Assembly: GCF_022843985.1 (NCBI RefSeq)
Contig: NZ_JALHMP010000027.1
Coordinates: 1 to 58,211, forward strand
DNA length: 58,211 nucleotides
Origin: Phreatobacter sp.
Lineage (GTDB): Bacteria; Pseudomonadota; Alphaproteobacteria; Rhizobiales; Phreatobacteraceae
Reading direction: 5' to 3'
In this document: piece after piece, positions 1,549-42,917 of the stretch
How positions within the stretch are numbered: position 1 is the first letter of the stretch
Layout: each line of letters opens with the position of its first letter
Position numbers and translations under genes: made by a program
Notes under the pieces: generated by a model
Told to the model about the DNA's origin: nothing
Databases searched by the model: none
The model's input: only the letters and a program-made list of their open reading frames with translations

Positions 1549-3675
1549 TCAGACACTGCCCACCGTCTTCAGGCGGACGCGCGGATGGATCTCCGCCTGG
1601 CTGAGGACCGGCGTCTGGGCGCGGAAGCGCTCGACGATGGAGCGCACGAAGGGCCGGATTCCGGGGCTGGTGAGCAGGACCGGCGCCTCGCCCATGCGTG
1701 CGGCATCCTCGAAGGAATCGCGCACCAGCATGATGAATTCCGACAGTTTGGACGGCTGCATGGCCAGCTGGCGGTCGTCGCCCTGGCCGACGATGGAATC
1801 GGCAAAGGCCTGTTCCCAGGTGGGCGACAGGGCGATGAGGGCGAGGCCGCCGTCATAACCGGCATATTGGGCGCAGAGCTGGCGGGCGAGGCGCGAACGC
1901 ACGTGCTCGGCGATCTGGGCCGGTGACCGGGTGAAGGCGACCGCTTCGGCGATGCCCTCGAGGATGGTCGGCAGGTCGCGGATGGAGACGCGCTCCGCCA
2001 GAAGCGTCTGCAGGACACGCTGGATGCCGGAAATGGTGATCTGGCCGGGCACCAGATCCTTGATGAGGTCGCCCTGGTCCTTGGGCATCTCCTTCATCAG
2101 CTTCTGCACCTCGGTATAGCTGAGGAGGTCGGAGACATTGGCCTTGAGGATCTCGGTGAGGTGCGTCGACAGCACGGTCGCGGCATCGACCACCGTGTAG
2201 CCGCGCACGCTCGCCTCTTCCTTCAGCGCCGCATCGACCCAGGTCGCCGGCAGCCCGAAGGTTGGCTCGGTCGTGTGGACGCCCGGGAGGTCGACCTGGC
2301 CGCCGGCCGGGTCCATGACCATGAACTGCATCGGCCAGATCTGGCCCTGGCCGGCATCCACCTCCTTGACGCGGATGATGTACTGGTTGGGCGGCAGCTG
2401 CACATTGTCGAGGATGCGCACCGAGGGCATGACAAAGCCCATGTCGGAGGCGAGCTGGCGGCGCAGCGCCTTGATCTGGTCGGTCAGGCGGTCCGAACCC
2501 CCTTCCGACTGGACGAGCGGCAGCAGGCCGTAGCCGAGCTCGATCTTCAGGTCATCGATCTTCAGGACGGAGGACATCGGCTCCTCCGCCGGGGGTGCGG
2601 CGGCTGCCGCCACCTCGGCGGCCTGGGCGACATCCGCGTCCCGGGCGATGCGCTTGGATTCCTCGCTGAGCGAATAGGCGGCCCAGCCCGCCAGGGCCGC
2701 GAGGCTGGCGAAGGGCAGGAAGGGGATGCCCGGCAGGAGCGCCATGGCGCCCATGACGCCGGCCGAAAGACCCAGCGCCTTCGGATAGCCGGTCAGCTGT
2801 TTCAGCATCGCCTGGTCGGCGGAGCCCTGGACGCCCGCCTTGGACACCAGGAGGCCGGCGGAGGTCGAGATGATGAGGGCAGGGATCTGGCTGACCAGGC
2901 CGTCGCCGACGGTGAGGATCGTGTAGGTCCGCGCCGCCTCGAGGAAGGGCATGCCCTGCTGGGCGACGCCGATGATGAGGCCGGCGATGATGTTGATGAA
3001 GGTGATGAGCAGGCCGGCGATGGCGTCGCCCTTCACGAATTTCGAGGCACCGTCCATGGCGCCGTAGAAGGCGCTCTCGTCTTCCAGATCCTTGCGGCGT
3101 GTCTTGGCGGTCTGCTCGTCGATCAGGCCGGCGGAGAGATCGGCGTCGATCGCCATCTGCTTGCCGGGCATGGCGTCGAGAGAGAAGCGCGCCGCGACCT
3201 CGGCAATGCGGCCCGAGCCCTTGGTGATGACGATGAAGTTCACGATCACCAGGATGGCGAAGACGATGATGCCGATGACGAAGGAGCCGCCCATCACGAA
3301 ATTGCCGAAGGCCTCGATGACATGGCCGGCAGCGGCGGTGCCCTCGTGTCCATGCGACAGGATCAGGCGGGTCGAGGCCAGATTCAGCGCCAGCCGCAGC
3401 ATCGTGGCGATGAGCAGCACGGTCGGGAAGGACGAGAATTCCAGCGGCTTGTGGATGAACAGCGCGGTCATGAGGATCATGACCGAGGAGATGATCGATA
3501 CCGCCAGCATCAGATCGAGGACGATCGCCGGCAGCGGGAAGATCAGGATGACCAGGATGCCGATGACGCCGACGGCCATCCACAGGTCGGGACGGCGCAG
3601 CCAGCCGGTCATCTGGCCAACCGACATGCCACTGGCCGTTGCGCGCTGTCTGTCGGCTAATGCCGTATCGCTCAT
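1549..3675 (-). CDS. flhA: Flagellar export gate protein FlhA
   Basis: 708 residues, normal for FlhA. The N-terminal half has the usual hydrophobic helices (from about residue 31). The conserved FHIPEP cytoplasmic loop lies at about 150-215, with TKGSGRIAEVAARFSLDAMPGKQ and IDADLSAGLIDE. The C-terminal cytoplasmic domain from about 360 docks export chaperones and substrates. FlhA forms the nonameric ring of the flagellar type III export gate. The gene stands alone on the minus strand, divergent from a small membrane gene and the fliF operon. A CtrA-type box lies 70 bases upstream of the ATG, which fits early-class flagellar control in alphaproteobacteria. Confidence 0.97.
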   Translation of the reverse strand: MSDTALADRQRATASGMSVGQMTGWLRRPDLWMAVGVIGILVILIFPLPAIVLDLMLAVSIISSVMILMTALFIHKPLEFSSFPTVLLIATMLRLALNLASTRLILSHGHEGTAAAGHVIEAFGNFVMGGSFVIGIIVFAILVIVNFIVITKGSGRIAEVAARFSLDAMPGKQMAIDADLSAGLIDEQTAKTRRKDLEDESAFYGAMDGASKFVKGDAIAGLLITFINIIAGLIIGVAQQGMPFLEAARTYTILTVGDGLVSQIPALIISTSAGLLVSKAGVQGSADQAMLKQLTGYPKALGLSAGVMGAMALLPGIPFLPFASLAALAGWAAYSLSEESKRIARDADVAQAAEVAAAAAPPAEEPMSSVLKIDDLKIELGYGLLPLVQSEGGSDRLTDQIKALRRQLASDMGFVMPSVRILDNVQLPPNQYIIRVKEVDAGQGQIWPMQFMVMDPAGGQVDLPGVHTTEPTFGLPATWVDAALKEEASVRGYTVVDAATVLSTHLTEILKANVSDLLSYTEVQKLMKEMPKDQGDLIKDLVPGQITISGIQRVLQTLLAERVSIRDLPTILEGIAEAVAFTRSPAQIAEHVRSRLARQLCAQYAGYDGGLALIALSPTWEQAFADSIVGQGDDRQLAMQPSKLSEFIMLVRDSFEDAARMGEAPVLLTSPGIRPFVRSIVERFRAQTPVLSQAEIHPRVRLKTVGSV

Positions 3676-3744: not shown

Positions 3745-3760
3745 GTTAACGGGAGGTTAC
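3745..3760 (-). promoter_or_regulatory. CtrA-type box upstream of flhA
   Basis: Read on the minus strand this is GTAACCTCCCGTTAAC: GTAA, seven bases, TTAAC. It differs from the TTAA-N7-TTAAC consensus by one base. It lies 70 bases before the flhA start, a normal place for an activator overlapping a -35. CtrA control of class II flagellar genes is established in Caulobacter; binding here is inferred. Confidence 0.6.
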
Positions 3761-4258: not shown

Positions 4259-4274
4259 TTAACCATCCGGTAAC
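4259..4274 (+). promoter_or_regulatory. CtrA-type box upstream of fliF
   Basis: TTAACCATCCGGTAAC: TTAA, seven bases, GTAAC, one mismatch to the CtrA consensus. It lies 59 bases before the chosen fliF ATG, in the short gap after the preceding gene. In Caulobacter the fliF operon is directly CtrA-controlled. Binding here is inferred from motif and position. Confidence 0.65.
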
Positions 4275-24662: not shown

Positions 24663-27600
24663 TCAGCGCGTGGTCTGGGCGCGCCGAGGCGTCGCCGGGC
24701 GGGCGGCGGCGGGAGGATCGCTCCACTCGGCCGGAGCGGCGACGCGGACGGCGGCGTCCGGTTCGGCCTTCGGCGCGAAGGTCTGCACGGCGAGCCGGGC
24801 TGCGACCAGCGTCTGGGCATCCAGGCGGGCTGCGACCTCGTCGCGCTTCTTGGCCGAGTCCTGATCGCCACCGGCGGCGGCGAGGGCGAACCACTTGTAG
24901 CTCTCGGCCAGGCTCTGGTCGACGCCGAGGCCGCGCGCATAGAGGATGCCGAGATTGTACTGGCTGTCGGTGACGCCGTGTTCAGCCGCGCGGCGGAACC
25001 ACTGGGCGGCGGTCTTGTAGTCCGGACGCGGCGTTGCCTGCCCCTGGGCAAACATGACCGCGAGGTTGTGCATGGCCTTGGCGTTGCCCGCTTCGCCGGC
25101 GCGCTCGTAAAGACGGCGGGCGCGCTCGAAGTCGCGCAGCACGCCGGTGCCCTTCTCGTACAGGCTTCCGAGGCGGTACTGCGCCGGGACGATGCCAGCA
25201 TCGGCGGCGCGCTGGTACCACCGCGCAGCCTCCGCAGCACTGACGGCGACGCCGCGGCCTTCCAGGTGGCGTGTGCCCATCTCGTGGGCGGCCAGGGGAT
25301 CGCCGGCATCGGCGGCGGCCTTCAGCGCGGCCGGAACCGATGCGGGGCGTCCAGTGCGGGTATCGACGGGCTGCCAGCCCGAGGGCGAGACGGTCATGCC
25401 CGGCGGCGGGGTGCGGCTGCCGCTCACCGAGCCGGTGGTCGCGGGGGCCGTGTCGCCGCCCGGCATGGCCGGCGTGGGATCGGTCGCCGACGGTCCCGCG
25501 GCAGGCGCGATCAGTTCGGCCGGGGTCGCACTGGTCGAGGCCGGCGAGAGGTTCGAGGCCGGGGCAGGGGCCGCGGGTGCGTCGGAGATGGGCGCCGCGG
25601 CAGGGGTCTCCACCGTGGCGGCCGGGATCGCCGTCTGCTGCGTCCCGGTGGCGTCAACCAGGCTGCGGATCTTCGGCACGGTGGCGATGCCGGCCGCCAG
25701 CACCAGCAGGGCCGCTGCGATGCCCATCAGGATGGTCTTGCGGTTGACCGCGAGAATCGGCTTCCTGGCCAGCTCTAGCTCGGCTTCCGCGGCCGGCTGG
25801 ATCGCGACGGGTTCCGGCGCCGGGATGACCGGAGCCGCATCCTCGCGTGCGGATTTGGCCAGCCAGCGGGGCTTCTTCGGCTGCGGCGCCGCAGGCTGGA
25901 CATCGTCCGGGTCCTTAGGCGCGCCGCGGAAACGCGCGAAGAAACCAGGCTTGGCATTCTCTTCCGGTTCCGGGCGAAGGGCCGGGTCGACGGCCGCCGC
26001 GCGCGCGGCCCGACGGGCGGCCGCGATGAAATCGGTCTTGGTGCCGCCGACGGGGGCAGCGCCCGGGGCTGGCGGGCGCACGCGGGGGGCGCCCGACCCC
26101 GGCTCCAGAGGCAGATCCACACTGCCCGGCGGACGGCCCGGCGCCGTCTGGCGGGAGACGGGCGCAGCGGGACGCTCGGCAACCAAGGGGGCCGAAGCTG
26201 ACTTGGGACGGGCGAGGGCCGGTTCCGGGTCGCGGGGAGCGAGCGGCGGCGAGGCGGCCACCGGCGGGGCCTCGGCAGGTTCGATCTCGGCGATGCGCTT
26301 GGCGACACGCTCGAAGGTCTGCTGCACGGCATCGACCGTGTCGGAACCCTTCTGGTCGATGGCGAGGCGGGAGCGGCGGACCTCGGCGATCTCGCGGCGC
26401 AGGGCCTCGATCTCGTCGTCCGTGCCGCTGCCCGGCGCTGCCGCAAGAGCCTTGCGCGCCGCCTGTTCGGCGGCCTCGATGGCGCCCGCCCGCATCTCTT
26501 CCATCTGGACGAAGAGGTCGGAGAGGCCGCGCTCGATGGTGCCGAGCTGGGCAAAGCGCCCGTCTGCGGCATCGATCTTGGCCGCGAGCGACAGGATGTG
26601 CCGCTCGATATCAGCCAGCGCCTTGGGGTCGTCGGGGCGGGCATGGCCGTCCTCCAGCTTGTCGGCGAGGCGATGAAGCGCCTCCTCCAGCTGGGGATTG
26701 GTGGCGGGCGCCGCGGCCGGGCGTGGCACAGCGGCAAGACGTTCGGCGATTTCCTCGATCCGCGCCTCGATGGCGGAGGTGATCGCGGCGACGTCGCTCG
26801 ACGTCTGGCGCGGCTGCGCGAGTTCGTCGATGCGGCGGCCGAGCGCGGCGATCTGGTCGCCGAGCGCGTCGATCGCGTCGCGTGACACGGTGTCGGCCAG
26901 CATGGCGCGGATGGCGCCGGTTTCCTGGGTGAGCCTGTCGAGCAGGCCGCCGCTCAGATCACGGCTAGCCAGGGTGTCGACACGATAGGACAGGGCCTTC
27001 AGCTCGTCGGCGATTCCCTCGGCGGGCATGAGCCGGGCGAGAGCCCGCTCGAATTCGTGAACCAGCTGTTCCAGAGGCTCGGCCGGCAGCCCCTGGGCGC
27101 GGGCCGCATCGAGCCTGGCGCCCAGTCCCTGCACTTCGGCCTCGAGGGAGGCGACGGCGCGGCGCGGCGCGAGATCGGAGAGCTGGTCGGCAATGGCGGC
27201 GATGTCGGAGCGCAGGTCGGCGACGGCGCGGTCATAGTGACCGGTCTCGCGCTCGGCGAGGTCGCGCCGCATCTGTTCGACCCGGCCGGACAGCGTCCGG
27301 ATCTCGCTCTGCAGCCCGTCGGAGGCGGGGACCGCCATGGCGTCGATCCGCTGGCTCAGCCGGCCGATCTCGCCGGCGAGCGCCGTGCTTTCGGGCGCAC
27401 GCGGCGCCGCGGAACGGGGCTGGTTCAGCACCGTCTCGATCTGGCGGGACAGGGCGTCGAGCCGTGCGGCAATGGGCGCCATGTCCGGCATGGCGAGCGG
27501 GTCGGCCGGTGCCGCGGCCATCGGCAACGGGGCCTCGCTGTGGCCGTGGGCGAGACTCTTCTGGCGCGCGGCAATCTCGGCCACGGCCATGTCGATGTCG

Positions 27601-28157
27601 CTGCGGAAGTTCTTTCGCGGTATCGATATACCATTAGTCACATCAACGTGGCGCGGGGCTGGCATGTCAAGACTGCGGATCGAGCGTGCGATCGCGTCCA
27701 TCTGGGCTGAGTGGTCGGCCCTTCCCGGAGTGGCAGCCGTCGCCATGGCCGGGGCCGATACGATGGACGGGGCTGGCCTCGTGCCACCCAGCCGCTCGAC
27801 TGCCTCGATGGCTGCGGCTGAACGCCGCTCGGAGATCTCTGCGAGCCGCGCCACGGCATCGAGGGCGCGGACGATGTCACTGTTGTCACTGCGAGCGGTG
27901 GGCAGTTTCGGGATCGCGGTCTCCGTTTCGCGCCGCGTCACCGCGTCGAGGCGCTGGGAAATCGATTCAAGCCGGCGGGTCACGGTGGACAGCCCCGTGT
28001 CGGTCACGGCAGCGGCGGAAACCTCCGCGGCCTGGTCAGCAATGGCGCTGTTCAGCCATTCCCCGAGCGACATGCCGGAGCGGCGGGCCGCTTCCTTGGC
28101 GGCCTCCCTTGCGTCCTGATCGACGCCTTTCACGCTCCAGGGGACAGTGTGTCGCAT
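24663..28157 (-). CDS. podJ: PodJ-like polar scaffold protein with SEL1 repeats
   Basis: 1164 residues. The N-terminus PWSVKGVDQDAREAAKEAARRSGMSLGEWLN is the conserved start of PodJ proteins. Several hundred residues of coiled-coil (about 60-620) follow, then an Ala/Pro-rich linker, one membrane span near 807-827, a Pro/Thr-rich periplasmic linker, and about four SEL1/TPR-like repeats at 945-1105 (GTRHLEGRGVA, LGSLYEKGTGV, LAVMFAQGQA, LGILYARGLGV). PodJ organises a cell pole and recruits division and polarity factors. A C-terminal peptidoglycan-binding domain, present in Caulobacter PodJ, is not visible here. It is divergent from merR. Confidence 0.85.
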   Translation of the reverse strand: MRHTVPWSVKGVDQDAREAAKEAARRSGMSLGEWLNSAIADQAAEVSAAAVTDTGLSTVTRRLESISQRLDAVTRRETETAIPKLPTARSDNSDIVRALDAVARLAEISERRSAAAIEAVERLGGTRPAPSIVSAPAMATAATPGRADHSAQMDAIARSIRSLDMPAPRHVDVTNGISIPRKNFRSDIDMAVAEIAARQKSLAHGHSEAPLPMAAAPADPLAMPDMAPIAARLDALSRQIETVLNQPRSAAPRAPESTALAGEIGRLSQRIDAMAVPASDGLQSEIRTLSGRVEQMRRDLAERETGHYDRAVADLRSDIAAIADQLSDLAPRRAVASLEAEVQGLGARLDAARAQGLPAEPLEQLVHEFERALARLMPAEGIADELKALSYRVDTLASRDLSGGLLDRLTQETGAIRAMLADTVSRDAIDALGDQIAALGRRIDELAQPRQTSSDVAAITSAIEARIEEIAERLAAVPRPAAAPATNPQLEEALHRLADKLEDGHARPDDPKALADIERHILSLAAKIDAADGRFAQLGTIERGLSDLFVQMEEMRAGAIEAAEQAARKALAAAPGSGTDDEIEALRREIAEVRRSRLAIDQKGSDTVDAVQQTFERVAKRIAEIEPAEAPPVAASPPLAPRDPEPALARPKSASAPLVAERPAAPVSRQTAPGRPPGSVDLPLEPGSGAPRVRPPAPGAAPVGGTKTDFIAAARRAARAAAVDPALRPEPEENAKPGFFARFRGAPKDPDDVQPAAPQPKKPRWLAKSAREDAAPVIPAPEPVAIQPAAEAELELARKPILAVNRKTILMGIAAALLVLAAGIATVPKIRSLVDATGTQQTAIPAATVETPAAAPISDAPAAPAPASNLSPASTSATPAELIAPAAGPSATDPTPAMPGGDTAPATTGSVSGSRTPPPGMTVSPSGWQPVDTRTGRPASVPAALKAAADAGDPLAAHEMGTRHLEGRGVAVSAAEAARWYQRAADAGIVPAQYRLGSLYEKGTGVLRDFERARRLYERAGEAGNAKAMHNLAVMFAQGQATPRPDYKTAAQWFRRAAEHGVTDSQYNLGILYARGLGVDQSLAESYKWFALAAAGGDQDSAKKRDEVAARLDAQTLVAARLAVQTFAPKAEPDAAVRVAAPAEWSDPPAAARPATPRRAQTTR

Positions 28158-28540
28158 CACGGGTCCACACGTTTGGCCAGATGGGACCGGGAACACCCAT
28201 TGCTAGACGGATGGTCGCGATCGGGGCATCCTCCAAGGCGAATCCACGATGCGCCATGCGAACACTCCCGTTCCGCAATCTTGGCCTTCATGGTAAATGG
28301 AGAGTTAACGGCGCGTTTTTTTGTTGCCCACGCCGCCGGTGCGTTAACCGTTAAGCTGATGGTAAGCGATTATAGGTGTTTCTGGATGGCCGGCGTGGAC
28401 CTGTCCTAACGGTAAGTAACAGATCGGTTTGTGTCGCACTCTCGCCTCGGGTGTGCAATTTCCGGTAAAGGGTGTCCCATCCACGAATGAGTGTTCCTCG
28501 GGCAGCGAGGATGGAGCAAATTATGGAACGGAAGGCATTT
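28158..28540. other. Divergent podJ/merR intergenic region
   Basis: 383 bases, AT-richer than the flanking genes, holding two divergent promoters. A CtrA-like site is at 28351-28366. A nearby GTTAACGG and a T-rich run (28315-28321) are visible. No further gene or RNA was recognised. Confidence 0.6.
28351..28366 (+). promoter_or_regulatory. CtrA-like site in podJ/merR region
   Basis: TTAAGCTGATGGTAAG: TTAA, seven bases, GTAA. One mismatch in the half sites and G instead of C at the end. It lies about 194 bases before podJ and 175-190 bases before merR. Weaker than the other CtrA-type boxes in this window. Confidence 0.4.
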
Positions 28541-35755: not shown

Positions 35756-36754
35756 ATGACCGCTGTTCCCCCGACCATGACTGCCATTGCCATTCCCGTT
35801 CCCGGCGGCCCCGAGGCCCTGGTGCCGGAGACGCGGCCGGTGCCCGTGCCGGCCGCCGGCGAGCTGCTGGTGAGGATCGCCGCGGCCGGCGTCAACCGGC
35901 CCGACGTGCTGCAGCGGGCCGGCGGCTATCCGCCGCCGAAGGGCGCCTCCGACATTCCCGGCCTGGAGTTTTCCGGCGAGGTCGTCGCCTGCGGCGACGG
36001 CGTGACCCGTTTCCAGGCGGGCGACAAGGTCTGTGCACTGGTGACCGGCGGCGGCTATGCCGAATATGCCGTTGTCCACGAGAGCAATGCGCTGCCGGTC
36101 CCGGCCGGTCTGTCGATGGTCGAGGCGGCGGGCATCCCCGAGACCTTCTTCACGGTCTGGTCCAACGTCTTCGACCGCGGCGGTCTGAAATCCGGTGAGA
36201 CCATCCTGATCCATGGCGGTACGTCGGGCATCGGCGTCACCGCGATCCAGCTCGCCAAGGCCTTCGGCGCGACGGTGATCACCACTGCCGGCTCGGACGA
36301 GAAATGCGCCGCCGCCAGAGCGCTTGGCGCCGACCATGCGATCAATTACCGCACGACCGATTTCCCCGCCGCGGTGAACGAGATCACGGCCAAGCGCGGC
36401 GCCCATCTCATCCTCGACATGGTCGGCGGCGACTATGTGCAGAAGAACCTCGACTGCGTCGCGGCCGACGGGCGCATCGTGCAGATCGCTTTCCTGCACG
36501 GCTCGGAGATCAAGGCGGATATCCGCTGGATCATGCTGAAGCGCGTCACTTTCACAGGCTCGACGCTGCGCATCCGCGACATCGCCTTCAAGGCGGCTCT
36601 GGCCGACGCGCTGAAGGCGAAGGTCTGGCCATTGCTGGAGAGCGGCAAGGTCAAGGTGGTGATGGACTCCACCTTTCCGCTGGCTGAAGCCTCCAAGGCC
36701 CATGCCCGGATGGAGGGCAGCACCCATATCGGCAAGATCGTGCTGACGGTGTGA
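35756..36754 (+). CDS. NAD(P)H:quinone oxidoreductase (PIG3/QOR-type)
   Basis: 332 residues of the zinc-free MDR family: MTAIAIPVPGGPEAL, AAAGVNRPDVLQRAGGYPPPKGASDIPGLEFSGEVVA, then the NADPH loop ILIHGGTSGIGVTAIQLAKAFGATVI. No zinc-binding cysteines are present. Members reduce quinones by one electron. Start chosen at ATG 35756 by alignment length. It lies 84 bases from the divergent DUF1192 start. Confidence 0.9.
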   Translation: MTAVPPTMTAIAIPVPGGPEALVPETRPVPVPAAGELLVRIAAAGVNRPDVLQRAGGYPPPKGASDIPGLEFSGEVVACGDGVTRFQAGDKVCALVTGGGYAEYAVVHESNALPVPAGLSMVEAAGIPETFFTVWSNVFDRGGLKSGETILIHGGTSGIGVTAIQLAKAFGATVITTAGSDEKCAAARALGADHAINYRTTDFPAAVNEITAKRGAHLILDMVGGDYVQKNLDCVAADGRIVQIAFLHGSEIKADIRWIMLKRVTFTGSTLRIRDIAFKAALADALKAKVWPLLESGKVKVVMDSTFPLAEASKAHARMEGSTHIGKIVLTV

Positions 36755-36813: not shown

Positions 36814-38238
36814 TTACGCCCCCGCGGGAAGGGCGTAGGGGCTCTTGTCGCGGGCGAGGAAGGTGCCGGCCCCCATGGCGCCGACGACCTTGCCGTCCTC
36901 CACCACGGTCCTGCCCCGGGCGATGGTCATGACCGGCCAGCCGGTGACAGCGAAGCCCTCCCAGGGGGTGTAGTCCGACCCGTGGTGCAGGATCTCCTGG
37001 CGGATCGTCTCCTTGCGGTTCGGATCCCACAGGACGATGTCGGCATCGGCGCCAACGGCGATCGTGCCCTTCTTCGGATAGAGGCCGTAGAGCTTGGCGT
37101 GGTTGGTGGAGGTGAGCGCCACGAATTCGTTCATGGTGATGCGTCCCTTGGCGACGCCCTCCGACCAGAACACCGGCAGGCGCGTCTCGACGCCGGGCAG
37201 GCCGTTCGGCACCCATTTGAACGAGGTGCGGCCCTTGTCGTTGAGCTTGCCGCGCGGGCTGTCGTAGAAGAACGGGCAGTGGTCGGAGGAGAAGGTCTGG
37301 AAGACGCCCTGCTTGATCCCTTCCCAGATGGCCTGCTGGCTGTCGGTATCGCGCGGCGGCGGCGAGCAGACATATTTGGCGCCCGACATGTCCATGTTCA
37401 GGCCCTTCATGTCGTCCTCGGTGAGGGTGATGTATTGCGGGCAGGTCTCGGCATAGACCTTGAGGCCGCGCTGGCGGGCCCAGCGGATCTGTTCCATCGC
37501 CTCGCGCCCCGAGACGTGGACGATCATGATCGGCACGTCGAGCAGTTCGGCATGGCTGATGGCGCGGTGGGTGGCCTCGCGCTCGATCACCTGCGGGCGC
37601 GACGGCCCGTGATAGTAGGGCGCCGTCTTGCCGGCCGCTTCCAGCCGCTCGGTCAGGAACTTGATGTTGTCGTAGCCCTCGGCATGGACCATCACCAGCG
37701 CCTGTTCGCGGCGGGCCACCTCGAAGACCTCGAGCAGCTGCCGATCGGAAAGAACGAGGTCGTCATAGGTCATGAAAACCTTGAACGAGGTGCAGCCGTC
37801 GGCGAAGAGCGCCGGCAGTTCCTGGTTGAGGACGGTCGGCGTCGGGTCGGAGACGACGAGGTGGAAACCGTAGTCGATATAGGCCTTGCCCTCGGCCTTG
37901 CGGTGGTAGTCGCTGACGCAGGCCCGCAGGGATTCCCCCTTCACCTGCATGGCGAAGGGGATGATGGTGGTGTTGCCGCCGGCGGCGGCCGAGCGCGTGC
38001 CGCTCTCGAAGCCGTCGGCCATGGTGATGTCCGGCCCCGAGGGCTGGTCGAGATGGACGTGGCTGTCGATGCCGCCGGGCATGACGAGAAGGCCCGAGGC
38101 GTCGATGGTGCGGGCGGCCTCGTTGATGGTATCGGCGAGCAGGGCCACCTTGCCGTCCTTGATGCCGACGTCGCAGCGGATCGTGTCGGAAGCCGTGACG
38201 ACGGTGCCGCCGCGGATGGCGAGGTCGAGATCGAGCAT
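36814..38238 (-). CDS. hydA: Dihydropyrimidinase/hydantoinase-type amidohydrolase
   Basis: 474 residues, cyclic amidohydrolase fold. Metal ligands: HVH at 60-62 (DSHVHLD), carbamylated Lys153 (GCTSFKVFMTY), His185 (VMVHAEG), His in IVHVSG and Asp in SSDHCPF. It opens cyclic ureides such as dihydropyrimidines, hydantoins or similar compounds. A role in pyrimidine or hydantoin catabolism is inferred from family; no preA, preT or beta-ureidopropionase gene is nearby. A strong CtrA-type box lies 159 bases upstream but is oriented to read away. Confidence 0.9.
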   Translation of the reverse strand: MLDLDLAIRGGTVVTASDTIRCDVGIKDGKVALLADTINEAARTIDASGLLVMPGGIDSHVHLDQPSGPDITMADGFESGTRSAAAGGNTTIIPFAMQVKGESLRACVSDYHRKAEGKAYIDYGFHLVVSDPTPTVLNQELPALFADGCTSFKVFMTYDDLVLSDRQLLEVFEVARREQALVMVHAEGYDNIKFLTERLEAAGKTAPYYHGPSRPQVIEREATHRAISHAELLDVPIMIVHVSGREAMEQIRWARQRGLKVYAETCPQYITLTEDDMKGLNMDMSGAKYVCSPPPRDTDSQQAIWEGIKQGVFQTFSSDHCPFFYDSPRGKLNDKGRTSFKWVPNGLPGVETRLPVFWSEGVAKGRITMNEFVALTSTNHAKLYGLYPKKGTIAVGADADIVLWDPNRKETIRQEILHHGSDYTPWEGFAVTGWPVMTIARGRTVVEDGKVVGAMGAGTFLARDKSPYALPAGA

Positions 38239-38396
38239 GAGGGGTCCCCGGACAGTCTGGAAGGCAGCAGGATGGACTGCCGACGCACCGCATTTTCAGC
38301 CGCCCGTCAAGTCCGAGCCGCCGTACCCCGGTTCACCGCGCCACCTCCCGCCGTCTGTGCTGCACCGCGAAGAATCGGCGCCTGCAACGGACCGGG

Positions 38397-38412
38397 TTAA
38401 CTGGGGGTTAAC
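38397..38412 (+). promoter_or_regulatory. Perfect CtrA box
   Basis: TTAACTGGGGGTTAAC: TTAA, seven bases, TTAAC, an exact match to the CtrA consensus. A GANTC site (38372-38376) lies 21 bases upstream. Downstream is a ~90-base segment ending in a terminator and no open reading frame, so it appears to drive an RNA. Confidence 0.75.
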
Positions 38413-38433
38413 CTTTCTGCTTTAACAAGAAAA

Positions 38434-38527
38434 TCGTTCAGTTCGCTGGACGCGAGTGGCTCCTGTCCACTCTGTTTGACGCCTCCCTGTATTCCACTTC
38501 AAGGCCGCCTTCGGGCGGCCTTTTTTT
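38434..38527 (+). ncRNA. Candidate CtrA-controlled trans-acting small RNA
   Basis: No CDS fits. After the CtrA box the sequence contains hairpin GAGTGG-CTCCTGT-CCACTC (38454-38472), with CTCCT in the loop, then single-stranded GCCTCCCTG (38481-38489), then a rho-independent terminator (38501-38527). CUCC(U/C)-type unpaired motifs are the classical anti-Shine-Dalgarno element of alphaproteobacterial sRNAs. The 5' end is estimated from promoter spacing. No Rfam family is claimed. Confidence 0.55.
38501..38527 (+). terminator. Rho-independent terminator with UUCG tetraloop
   Basis: AAGGCCGCC (38501-38509), TTCG loop, GGCGGCCTT (38514-38522), then a T-run to 38527. Textbook intrinsic terminator with no gene upstream on this strand for 1.7 kb, which is the main evidence for the small RNA. 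Confidence 0.9.
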
Positions 38528-38775
38528 ACGCTGACCGGCCCTGTTTCCGGGCGCCCGCCTGCGCTGCATTTTCAGCCTTGGCACCGCCGCGTTTTCATCG
38601 TCTCATCATCGTCGTCGGATGCTCCCTGTCCCGTTGCGGGACGGATCGGACTGGCACCGGCCTTGCTGAATCAGATCCGAGACCGCATTTCCGCCGCCGT
38701 TTACCTTTCCTTAAGCAAACGCTTTACGCGGCGCGAGGACGGCGGCACACACGGGTTCTGAGGAGTTTTAGCGTG

Positions 38776-39306
38776 ATGTCGCATGAGAGCGTTTCGTCGA
38801 TCGCCGAGCCGACCGTCGCCTTCGGGGCGCGGCTCGCCAGCTCCCCCGCCTTCAAGGAGCTGTTCCGCGACGGGATGGGCCTCGTGGAGGAGACGGCAGC
38901 CTATCTCGATGGTCCCGGACGCGAGGAAAGCCGCGCTCTCGAGCGCGGAGCGGCGCTCGCCTATGCGACCGAGAGCATGCGTCTGACCACCCGCCTGATG
39001 CAACTCGCCTCGTGGCTGCTGCTGCAACGCGCCGTCAACGAGGGTGAACTGACGCAGGAGCAGGCGGCGCAGGAGAAGTCCAAGGTCCGCCTGTCGTCGG
39101 TCGGGGCGCCGACGCCGCTGTCGGTCATCGAGGAACTGCCCGAGGCGCTCGGCCTGCTGATCGGCAAGGCCATGCGGCTGCAGGAGCGGATCGTCCATAT
39201 CGACCGTCTGCTGTTCAACCCGCCGCCAGAAACGGCCGCGGCGCCGATCAACGCCATTTCCAGCCAGATCGATCTCCTGGCGAATGCCTTCGGCGCGCGG
39301 CGCTGA
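38776..39306 (+). CDS. rcdA: RcdA-like DUF1465 protein (CtrA proteolysis adaptor)
   Basis: 176 residues from the ATG (MSHESVSS); the GTG immediately before (38773) is an alternative. The DUF1465 domain spans FGARLASSPAFKELFRDGMGLVEETAAYLDGPGR, TESMRLTTRLMQLASWLLLQRAVNEGELT, and PLSVIEELPEALGLLIGKAMRLQERI. In Caulobacter RcdA links CtrA to ClpXP for degradation. Here it lies downstream of a CtrA-type box and the small RNA, so a feedback arrangement is possible. The assignment is by family; conserved residues known to bind CtrA were not checked. Confidence 0.8.
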   Translation: MSHESVSSIAEPTVAFGARLASSPAFKELFRDGMGLVEETAAYLDGPGREESRALERGAALAYATESMRLTTRLMQLASWLLLQRAVNEGELTQEQAAQEKSKVRLSSVGAPTPLSVIEELPEALGLLIGKAMRLQERIVHIDRLLFNPPPETAAAPINAISSQIDLLANAFGARR

Positions 39307-41636: not shown

Positions 41637-41741
41637 GGACGGACTCGATCGTCCTTGACCGCCGGGCCGCATGCGCCTATCCCGGTCGGCGGGACATGCC
41701 CCCCCAACGGGGCACGCCCATCTGTGAGGATGGAGATCCAA
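41637..41741 (+). promoter_or_regulatory. Structured serC leader, candidate serC-motif RNA
   Basis: Between ruvC and serC are GGACG-loop-CGTCC (41637-41654) and a stem TGCCCC-CCCAAC-GGGGCA (41697-41714), followed directly by the SD and the ATG. Two hairpins in front of serC fit the serC RNA motif reported in alphaproteobacteria (Rfam serC). Assignment is from memory of the motif, not from a model search. Confidence 0.45.
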
Positions 41742-42917
41742 ATGTCGACAACCGCCCCGACTGCGCGTCCGCGCGTGAATACCTTTTCGTCCGGCCCTTG
41801 CGCCAAGCGCCCTGGCTGGTCCCTCAAAGCTCTGGCTGACGCGCCCCTCGGGCGGTCGCACCGCGCCAAGATCGGCAAGGCGAAGCTGAAGCTTGCCATC
41901 GACCTGACGCGCGAGGTGCTGCAGGTCCCGGCCAGCTACCGGATCGGCATCGTGCCGGCCTCCGACACCGGCGCGGTCGAGATGGCCATGTGGTCGATGC
42001 TCGGCGTCCGCGGCGTCGACATGGTCTCCTGGGAGAGCTTCGGCGAGGGCTGGGTCACCGACGTGGTCAAGCAGCTGAAGCTTGCCGATGTCCGCACCAT
42101 CACCGCCCCCTATGGCGAGCTGCCGAACCTCAAGACGATCGACACCAAGACCCGTGACGTCGTCTTCACCTGGAACGGCACGACCTCCGGCGTGCGCGTT
42201 CCCAATGCCGACTGGATCGCCGCCGATCGCCAGGGCCTGACCATCTGCGACGCGACCTCGGCGGCCTTCGCCCAGCGTCTGGACTGGGACAAGCTCGATG
42301 TCGTCACCTTCTCCTGGCAGAAGGTGCTCGGCGGCGAGGCGGCCCACGGCATGCTGATCCTGTCGCCCCGTGCGGTCGAGCGGCTGGAGAGCTACAAGCC
42401 GGCCTGGCCGCTGCCCAAGATCTTCCGCATGACCAAGGGCGGCAAGCTCATCGAGGGCATTTTTGAAGGGGAGACCATCAATACGCCCTCGATGCTCTGC
42501 GTCGAGGACTATATCGATGCGCTGAAATGGGCGCAGAAGGTCGGCGGCCTCGACGGTCTGGTGAAGCGCGCGGATGCCAATACCCGGGTCATCGCAAAAT
42601 TCGTGAAAGACAACGACTGGATCGACTTCCTGGCCACCAAGCCGAAGACCCGCTCCAACACCTCGGTGTGCCTCAAGTTCACCGACCCGGCCGTGACGGC
42701 GCTGCCGGCCGATGCTCAGGCGGCCTTTGCCAAGGGCGTGGTGGCGGCGCTGGAGAAGGAGGGGGCCGGCCTCGATCTCGGGCATTACCGCGATGCGCCT
42801 CCCGGCCTCAGGATCTGGTGCGGCGCGACCGTTCAGGCGCGTGATCTCAAGGCGCTGATGCCTTGGATCGCCTATGCCTTCGCCGCCGAGAAGGCGAAAC
42901 TGAAGAAGGCGGCGTAA
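41742..42917 (+). CDS. serC: Phosphoserine aminotransferase SerC
   Basis: 391 residues. Start ATG 41742 with GGAG 6 bases upstream. The class V aminotransferase fold shows [33 protein letters not shown], the PLP lysine region [15 protein letters not shown], and a C-terminal [20 protein letters not shown]. It converts 3-phosphohydroxypyruvate to phosphoserine. The long serA gene follows on the same strand, giving the serine-synthesis pair serC-serA. Confidence 0.95.

Follow-up and report, generated by a model that had tools for sequence, protein, structure and literature searches.

The cell cycle of Alphaproteobacteria is controlled by the master regulator CtrA. The described small RNAs (sRNAs) to which the present locus can be compared are summarized here from excerpts of the papers cited. 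CcnA of Caulobacter crescentus has an upstream CtrA box and CtrA-tied expression, and its C-rich loop contacts G-rich 5' leaders; Loop A of CcnA contains CCCC, and ccnA is located at the origin of replication (PMC8959179). Six Caulobacter non-coding RNAs carry CtrA motifs (PMC4287350), and CtrA-motif predictions for non-coding RNAs of the same organism are given in a further study (PMC5988900). GspR and EcpR1 of Sinorhizobium, a member of the same order as the organism studied here, are both trans-acting sRNAs on cell-cycle regulators (PMC5928217, PMC4414408). GspR is reported from Sinorhizobium only, is encoded between SMc03844 and SMc03845 and, in the excerpt, has no known promoter signature in front of it (PMC5928217). 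EcpR1 is located downstream of divK-pleD and presents UCCGCCGCAUCU in the loop of its stem-loop 1 (PMC4414408). Anti-Shine-Dalgarno motifs in unpaired regions are found in alpha-r14 (NfeR1), alpha-r15 (AbcR) and alpha-r8 (MmgR), and NfeR1 displays the motif in all three of its hairpin loops (PMC7143759).

What is the RNA that is encoded ahead of rcdA in Phreatobacter sp.? The window, that is, the whole stretch of DNA that was analysed, comprises 58,211 nucleotides, and the elements that matter for this question are arranged as follows.

36814-38238, minus strand: dihydropyrimidinase gene, the upstream neighbour (reading frames and domain matches)
38397-38412, plus strand: CtrA box TTAACTGGGGGTTAAC, TTAA-N7-TTAAC, overlapping the -35 region of the putative sRNA promoter (motif conservation)
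38421-38426, plus strand: -10-like element TTTAAC, family consensus TTTATNAC (column conservation, 127 sequences)
38433-38527, plus strand: BjrC1505-family sRNA, predicted primary transcript of about 95 nt with a predicted 5' end (Rfam and the promoter-blind model R1)
38435-38452, plus strand: stem-loop 1, SL1 (fold; compensatory changes)
38454-38472, plus strand: stem-loop 2, SL2, with CUCCUGU (anti-Shine-Dalgarno) between the stem halves (fold; covariation in the 52-sequence set)
38460-38466, plus strand: CUCCUGU of SL2 (fold)
38478-38489, plus strand: unpaired core GACGCCUCCCUG, where conservation within the family is highest (alignment of 52 homologues)
38501-38527, plus strand: intrinsic terminator, stem 38501-38522 and U-run (terminator scan, fold, covariation)
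38700-38714, plus strand: second CtrA-like box, TTTA-N7-TTAA with one mismatch, before rcdA and belonging to rcdA, not to the sRNA
38776-39306, plus strand: rcdA, protease adaptor and syntenic neighbour (NF051867 RcdA at 211 bits, cut-off 170; DUF1465)

Judged by its covariance-model match, the segment is a member of the catalogued, uncharacterised BjrC1505 family, and the RNA itself is already known. The first-pass annotation had proposed a candidate sRNA here and an Rfam search among the checks, and this search returns RF02356 (BjrC1505, "Alphaproteobacterial sRNA") at 38390-38528 on the plus strand with 93.2 bits (E 1.5e-16), far above the gathering cut-off of 50; because of this match, the RNA cannot be called new. 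The match spans model positions 1-140, which is the full model, and RF02356 is the sole Rfam family over its curated threshold at this place, and the five other families listed for 38250-38800 at E values up to 1 all score below theirs. SL1, SL2, the C-rich core and the terminator are all present and conserved as well. A single copy is found in the source genome. RF02356 matches occur in 36 of the 41 genomes of the genus and order (33 exceed the cut-off) and in 40 of the 385 genomes across the class (17 exceed it). The same window contains a second RNA of a known family, the serC leader element RF00517 (41687-41738; 59.3 bits, with a gathering value of 35), which stands at the 5' end of a phosphoserine transaminase frame (41655-42914). 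No other Rfam RNA was found next to ctrA, gcrA or the outer-membrane protein gene discussed below.

The name BjrC1505 reportedly goes back to Madhugiri et al. (2012, RNA Biol). PMC4842269 cites that work for the BjrC sRNAs; BjrC1505 is not mentioned in the excerpts from this transcript study of Bradyrhizobium or from a second one (PMC5082802). An Rfam scan of transcribed non-coding units of Methylosinus sporium names EcpR1 and alpha-r45, not BjrC1505, in the excerpt of that study (PMC12403871). In the literature searched, BjrC1505 appears as a table entry only, without the CtrA box, the rcdA neighbourhood or a shorter RNA, and excerpts that deal with rcdA, sRNA and CtrA say nothing about this RNA. 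A literature search for RF02356 found no mention, and one with the core sequence returned unrelated papers only, as judged by title. No earlier statement of a CtrA-driven BjrC1505 was found; the naming paper lies outside this search, so priority is unproven.

The BjrC1505 RNA resembles CcnA in its upstream CtrA box and C-rich loop, but 38433-38527 contains no CCCC. RF02356 matches none of 14 control genomes, among which Caulobacter vibrioides is taken to be, and CcnA would therefore be a functional parallel and not a member of the BjrC1505 family, a distinction judged by RF02356. The EcpR1 loop sequence is likewise absent from 38433-38527. Unlike NfeR1, the present RNA carries the anti-Shine-Dalgarno motif (CUCCU) in the SL2 loop only. 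The suhB/mmgR model of Rfam shows weak similarity at 21.3 bits, well below its gathering value of 41.

The structure of the RNA is defined by energy, termination and covariation. The segment 38433-38527 folds at -35.7 kcal/mol (z -4.5), and none of 200 shuffles reaches so low a value. The textbook terminator that had been noted from the sequence alone is picked at the same stem (38501-38522, followed by the U-run) by both the fold and a terminator scan; terminator-like sites in 38240-38800 number two, compared with 0.7 in shuffles, and the second is the palindromic CtrA box itself. The statement that no gene on this strand needs this terminator also stands, because the nearest plausible upstream plus-strand gene ends at 36754 and the gene between, at 36814-38238, is on the minus strand. 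As for the roughly 90 bases said to have no reading frame, 38476-39306 with a TTG start is the only frame of at least 60 amino acids that overlaps the RNA, and it is not credible, as it crosses the terminator into rcdA.

An alignment of 52 diverse homologues, made from 70 diverse loci with L162, L168 and 16 others of the order left out, has the drawn structure paired in 90.5% of cells and contains 68 doubly changed cells, compared with 17.8 in shuffles. The terminator helix is paired in 97.8% of cells of this set and is the only element that RNAalifold alone recovers from the 52 sequences. Among 39 order-level sequences, SL1 varies with compensatory changes, the terminator varies too and SL2 is invariant, the latter because this set was chosen by a core pattern that fixes most of SL2; for two of the five covariation measures, the value of this set is frequently attained by shuffles (93 and 67 of 500). 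The core GACGCCUCCCUG is nearly invariant across the 52 homologues. The single-stranded CCTCCC segment of the earlier reading is borne out, its CCUCCC being kept also in distant homologues. The hairpin with CTCCT in its loop is present as well, with a refinement: CUCCUGU is conserved at the order level, but it has few counterparts in more distant homologues, where it is not kept.

How is this RNA expressed? The perfect CtrA box reported at 38397-38412 is the only perfect TTAA-N7-TTAA of the whole window, which contains seven boxes with no more than one mismatch, as against 0.35 expected; none of 100 shuffles reaches seven. These seven include one-mismatch sites at 3746-3760, just upstream of flhA (1552-3675, minus strand), at 4259-4273, upstream of a part that matches fliF, and at 1509-1523. 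A further pair, at 28294-28308 and 28351-28365, precedes the gene (24666-28196, minus strand) of a long SEL1-repeat-like protein with coiled coils, for which no NCBIfam model exceeds its cut-off and which may be PodJ-like. The conservation of the box ahead of the sRNA was assessed in a non-circular manner with homologues picked by the DNA pattern of SL2 and the core alone. This pattern yields at least 119 stretches; 114 of the 119 listed have enough upstream sequence, and 112 of these are non-identical. Among the matches listed, 111 of the 112 homologues carry a box with 7 or 8 of 8 bases at 55-67 bases before SL2 (8 bases in 35 and 7 in 76; the remaining homologue scores 6), whereas such a box occurs in 0.07% of 22593 windows of equal size from other parts of these loci. 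At 85-120 bases upstream of SL2, none of the 112 homologues among the matches listed reaches 7.

The box was also recovered with R1, a covariance model of the RNA without the promoter that was built from the 39 order-level sequences. R1 matches 60 of the 385 class genomes at E <= 0.001 (rough E-values), and among the best 30 of these 60 genomes, a box with 7 or 8 of 8 bases stands in 28 loci (the others score 6 and 5), compared with 0.42% of 960 background windows; the 30 loci are non-independent, since families are shared, four are from the order (the window's own included) and the window is in the model. Two loci that the structural alignment left out, L162 and L168, reappear in this promoter-blind set as L457 and L462 with boxes of 7 of 8 bases. 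Among the 28 boxed loci of the best 30, 23 boxes start 36-42 bases before the match. In the window, R1 matches 38433-38527 at 91.9 bits, the window sequence being among its 39 building sequences, and the box starts 36 bases before this match, from which we infer the start site. A column profile of 127 sequences reads TTWAC-N5-RTTAAGCTTTC, a variable spacer, the -10-like TTTATNAC and the hairpins, with flanks that drift on both sides. Thus, the pattern proposed as support in the first-pass annotation, conserved hairpins and CtrA box with drifting flanks, is what the homologues display. A sigma-70 consensus scan finds no promoter site at the sRNA. Such simple scans commonly miss activator-dependent promoters. 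In Caulobacter, full CtrA motifs near -35 are associated with activation, according to the excerpt of PMC4287350, and since the box starts 36 bases before the match, the predicted promoter geometry would fit CtrA activation by analogy.

Two other readings of the box have to be weighed. The box could be kept by chance or as a general effect of A+T-rich intergenic DNA, with no CtrA function, and this view draws on the fact that the background windows were drawn from whole loci, genes included, and not from intergenic DNA alone. We regard it as highly improbable, because the box frequencies exceed the background so widely in both homologue sets, because none of the 112 homologues reaches 7 bases at 85-120 bases upstream of SL2 and because other boxes of the window stand beside flhA, fliF and the SEL1-repeat coiled-coil gene. 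The second reading follows the Rfam model, in which 140 positions are counted from 38390 and positions 1-43 cover the box: the box would then be inside the RNA, and CtrA would repress a transcript that starts upstream. However, only 7 of the 14 pairs of this 5' domain are standard in the window, in contrast to 10 of 10 in SL1 and SL2 (terminator pairs uncounted), the domain is conserved like a DNA site with a -10 element at near-fixed spacing, and a model that lacks it still finds the RNA across the class. This arrangement therefore seems very unlikely. Given the poor pairing and a promoter-blind match that mostly starts 36-42 bases after the start of the box, model positions 1-43 (38390-38432) are probably promoter DNA with the CtrA box and the -10 element, and the RNA would be about 95 nt long.

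The third alternative concerns rcdA. The CtrA-driven transcript could be a 5' leader or attenuator that is mostly stopped at the terminator and expresses rcdA by readthrough. The position upstream of rcdA, noted from the start, is indeed the rule. The neighbourhood was counted in 178 loci, from which four without a recognizable core (L014, L160, L170 and L174) were dropped. Downstream sequence of 1000 bases or more is present for 144 loci, and 128 of these have rcdA on that side and in the same orientation. Moreover, a CtrA motif is described in the rcdA promoter of Caulobacter (PMC4287350), and CtrA motifs are reported upstream of rcdA in S. meliloti (PMC3616915) and agrobacteria (PMC10469942). 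The RNA, its terminator and the box nevertheless persist in the 16 of 144 loci without a downstream rcdA: in 15, no rcdA match to the window's RcdA as query (E 0.01) was found in the sequence covered, and in L058 rcdA is on the other side and the other strand of the sRNA. In each of these 16, the box retains 7 or 8 of its 8 bases. It was the Rfam model, which includes the box, that first identified the 15; 10 of them also appear among the loci of the best 30 genomes for the promoter-blind model, and the box is present in 10 of 10. Furthermore, a separate box with 7 of 8 bases precedes rcdA in 9 of the 11 loci of the genus (7 or 8 bases in 18 of 139 loci elsewhere, some of them possibly of the genus). 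The single-stranded core is conserved, in contrast to the drifting sequence behind the terminator and to the distance to rcdA, which differs between loci. Because rcdA mostly has its own box in the genus and the sRNA box is kept where rcdA was not found downstream, the genus seems to have the sRNA and rcdA as two distinct CtrA-linked units, which argues against a pure leader role, although some readthrough may occur. A leader of rcdA is thus an unlikely account of this RNA.

We consider it probable that BjrC1505 is instead a trans-acting sRNA with its own CtrA-box promoter, whose C-rich elements repress mRNAs at their ribosome-binding sites. The CtrA-driven sRNA that the first-pass annotation envisaged, now within a family already in Rfam, gains support from the conserved box and hairpins. 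The sRNA would be transcribed from its own promoter, and phosphorylated CtrA most likely turns it on in the predivisional phase because the -35 region of this promoter coincides with a CtrA box. The RNA of about 95 nt would terminate at its own terminator, and the CUCCUGU of the SL2 loop and the unpaired core would pair with ribosome-binding sites and thereby lower the translation of target mRNAs. In this genus, the best target candidate would be the mRNA of an outer-membrane beta-barrel protein.

Which mRNAs could be bound? The pairing of the sRNA with start regions was scored in 325 sampled genes (crude gene calls and start choices; the dnaA start was guessed). The anti-Shine-Dalgarno motifs that had been predicted are present in the SL2 loop and the core, but they do not favour the four cell-cycle mRNAs that were compared: ctrA, gcrA, dnaA and rcdA rank ordinary among the sampled genes, with ranks (lower is stronger) of 0.43, 0.36, 0.97 and 0.23 for the SL2 loop and 0.16, 0.34, 0.94 and 0.45 for the core, and are rejected as targets. 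The strongest pairing with the SL2 loop among the sampled genes is displayed by the start region GGACAGGAGCAUCCUGUG of a PBP-like substrate-binding protein (PF12849, 46635-47663).

The complement of the SL2 loop, as GGACAGGAG-N(2,9)-ATG, occurs 38 times in four genus genomes, versus 4 times for the reversed control. The sole gene preceded by GGACAGGAG in all four encodes an outer-membrane beta-barrel protein (PF13505; identified by eye), and its mRNA has a 9-base complement to the SL2 loop in 12 of 12 genus genomes (best match each). None of the 18 other matches to this protein that were read, out of 47, has a GGACAGGAG site; in three of these, L335, L336 and L352, the place read was not the gene start. 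In one genome, G006, GUCCUGUCC takes the place of CUCCUGUCC in the sRNA loop and the outer-membrane protein leader has UGGACAGGAG, so that the pairing shifts by one base and nine pairs are kept, in this one case only. No equivalent of the protein was found outside the genus in 19 genomes at E 1e-30, and none of 21 site-pattern matches in four genomes of other families stands, by eye, before such a protein. Conservation of the ribosome-binding site alone is not decisive, since within the genus the ctrA leader block shows good conservation too. The outer-membrane protein mRNA is thus the best target candidate, and it is a lead, not a result, because the shifted pairing is a single case and the protein has no equivalent found outside the genus. 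The GGACAGGAG site also occurs in two of the four genus genomes before a metallo-hydrolase-like protein (L288, L295), and in two of four before a small membrane protein (L317, at G000:C19 around 32669 on the minus strand, and L303 in G007), which is presumably DUF6468-like.

For the core, the complement AGGGAGGC-N(2,10)-ATG has 99 matches in the four genus genomes, of which 70 stretches were read (all those in G000, G006 and G008, and 14 of the 42 in G007). When frames of 80 amino acids or longer are compared, no gene is common to even two of G000, G006 and G008, and no target could be retained from this comparison. Orthologue pairs with G007 are an XdhC-like protein (L356/L421), an oxidoreductase-like protein (L370/L371) and a small protein (L399/L402), all named by eye.

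Two features of the BjrC1505 RNA are, as far as genome comparison goes, new and well supported: a CtrA box that is kept in several alphaproteobacterial families, and a position that is usually ahead of rcdA. They point to a likely regulator of this Rfam family, whose function was not found described in the literature, and they suggest that the RF02356 model includes a promoter. They also caution that the box before the sRNA could be misread in motif scans as a promoter site of rcdA. Taken with the kept box, BjrC1505 suggests an old, overlooked tie between cell-cycle timing and RNA-level control. On balance, we lean towards the view that BjrC1505 is an ancient core sRNA of the CtrA regulon, usually encoded before rcdA, that would give CtrA a post-transcriptional output beside the RcdA degradation route. 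The output proposed is pairing at ribosome-binding sites, including that of an outer-membrane protein. Kept across several families of the class, the CtrA box of BjrC1505 may thus mark a testable, general sRNA arm of the CtrA circuit.
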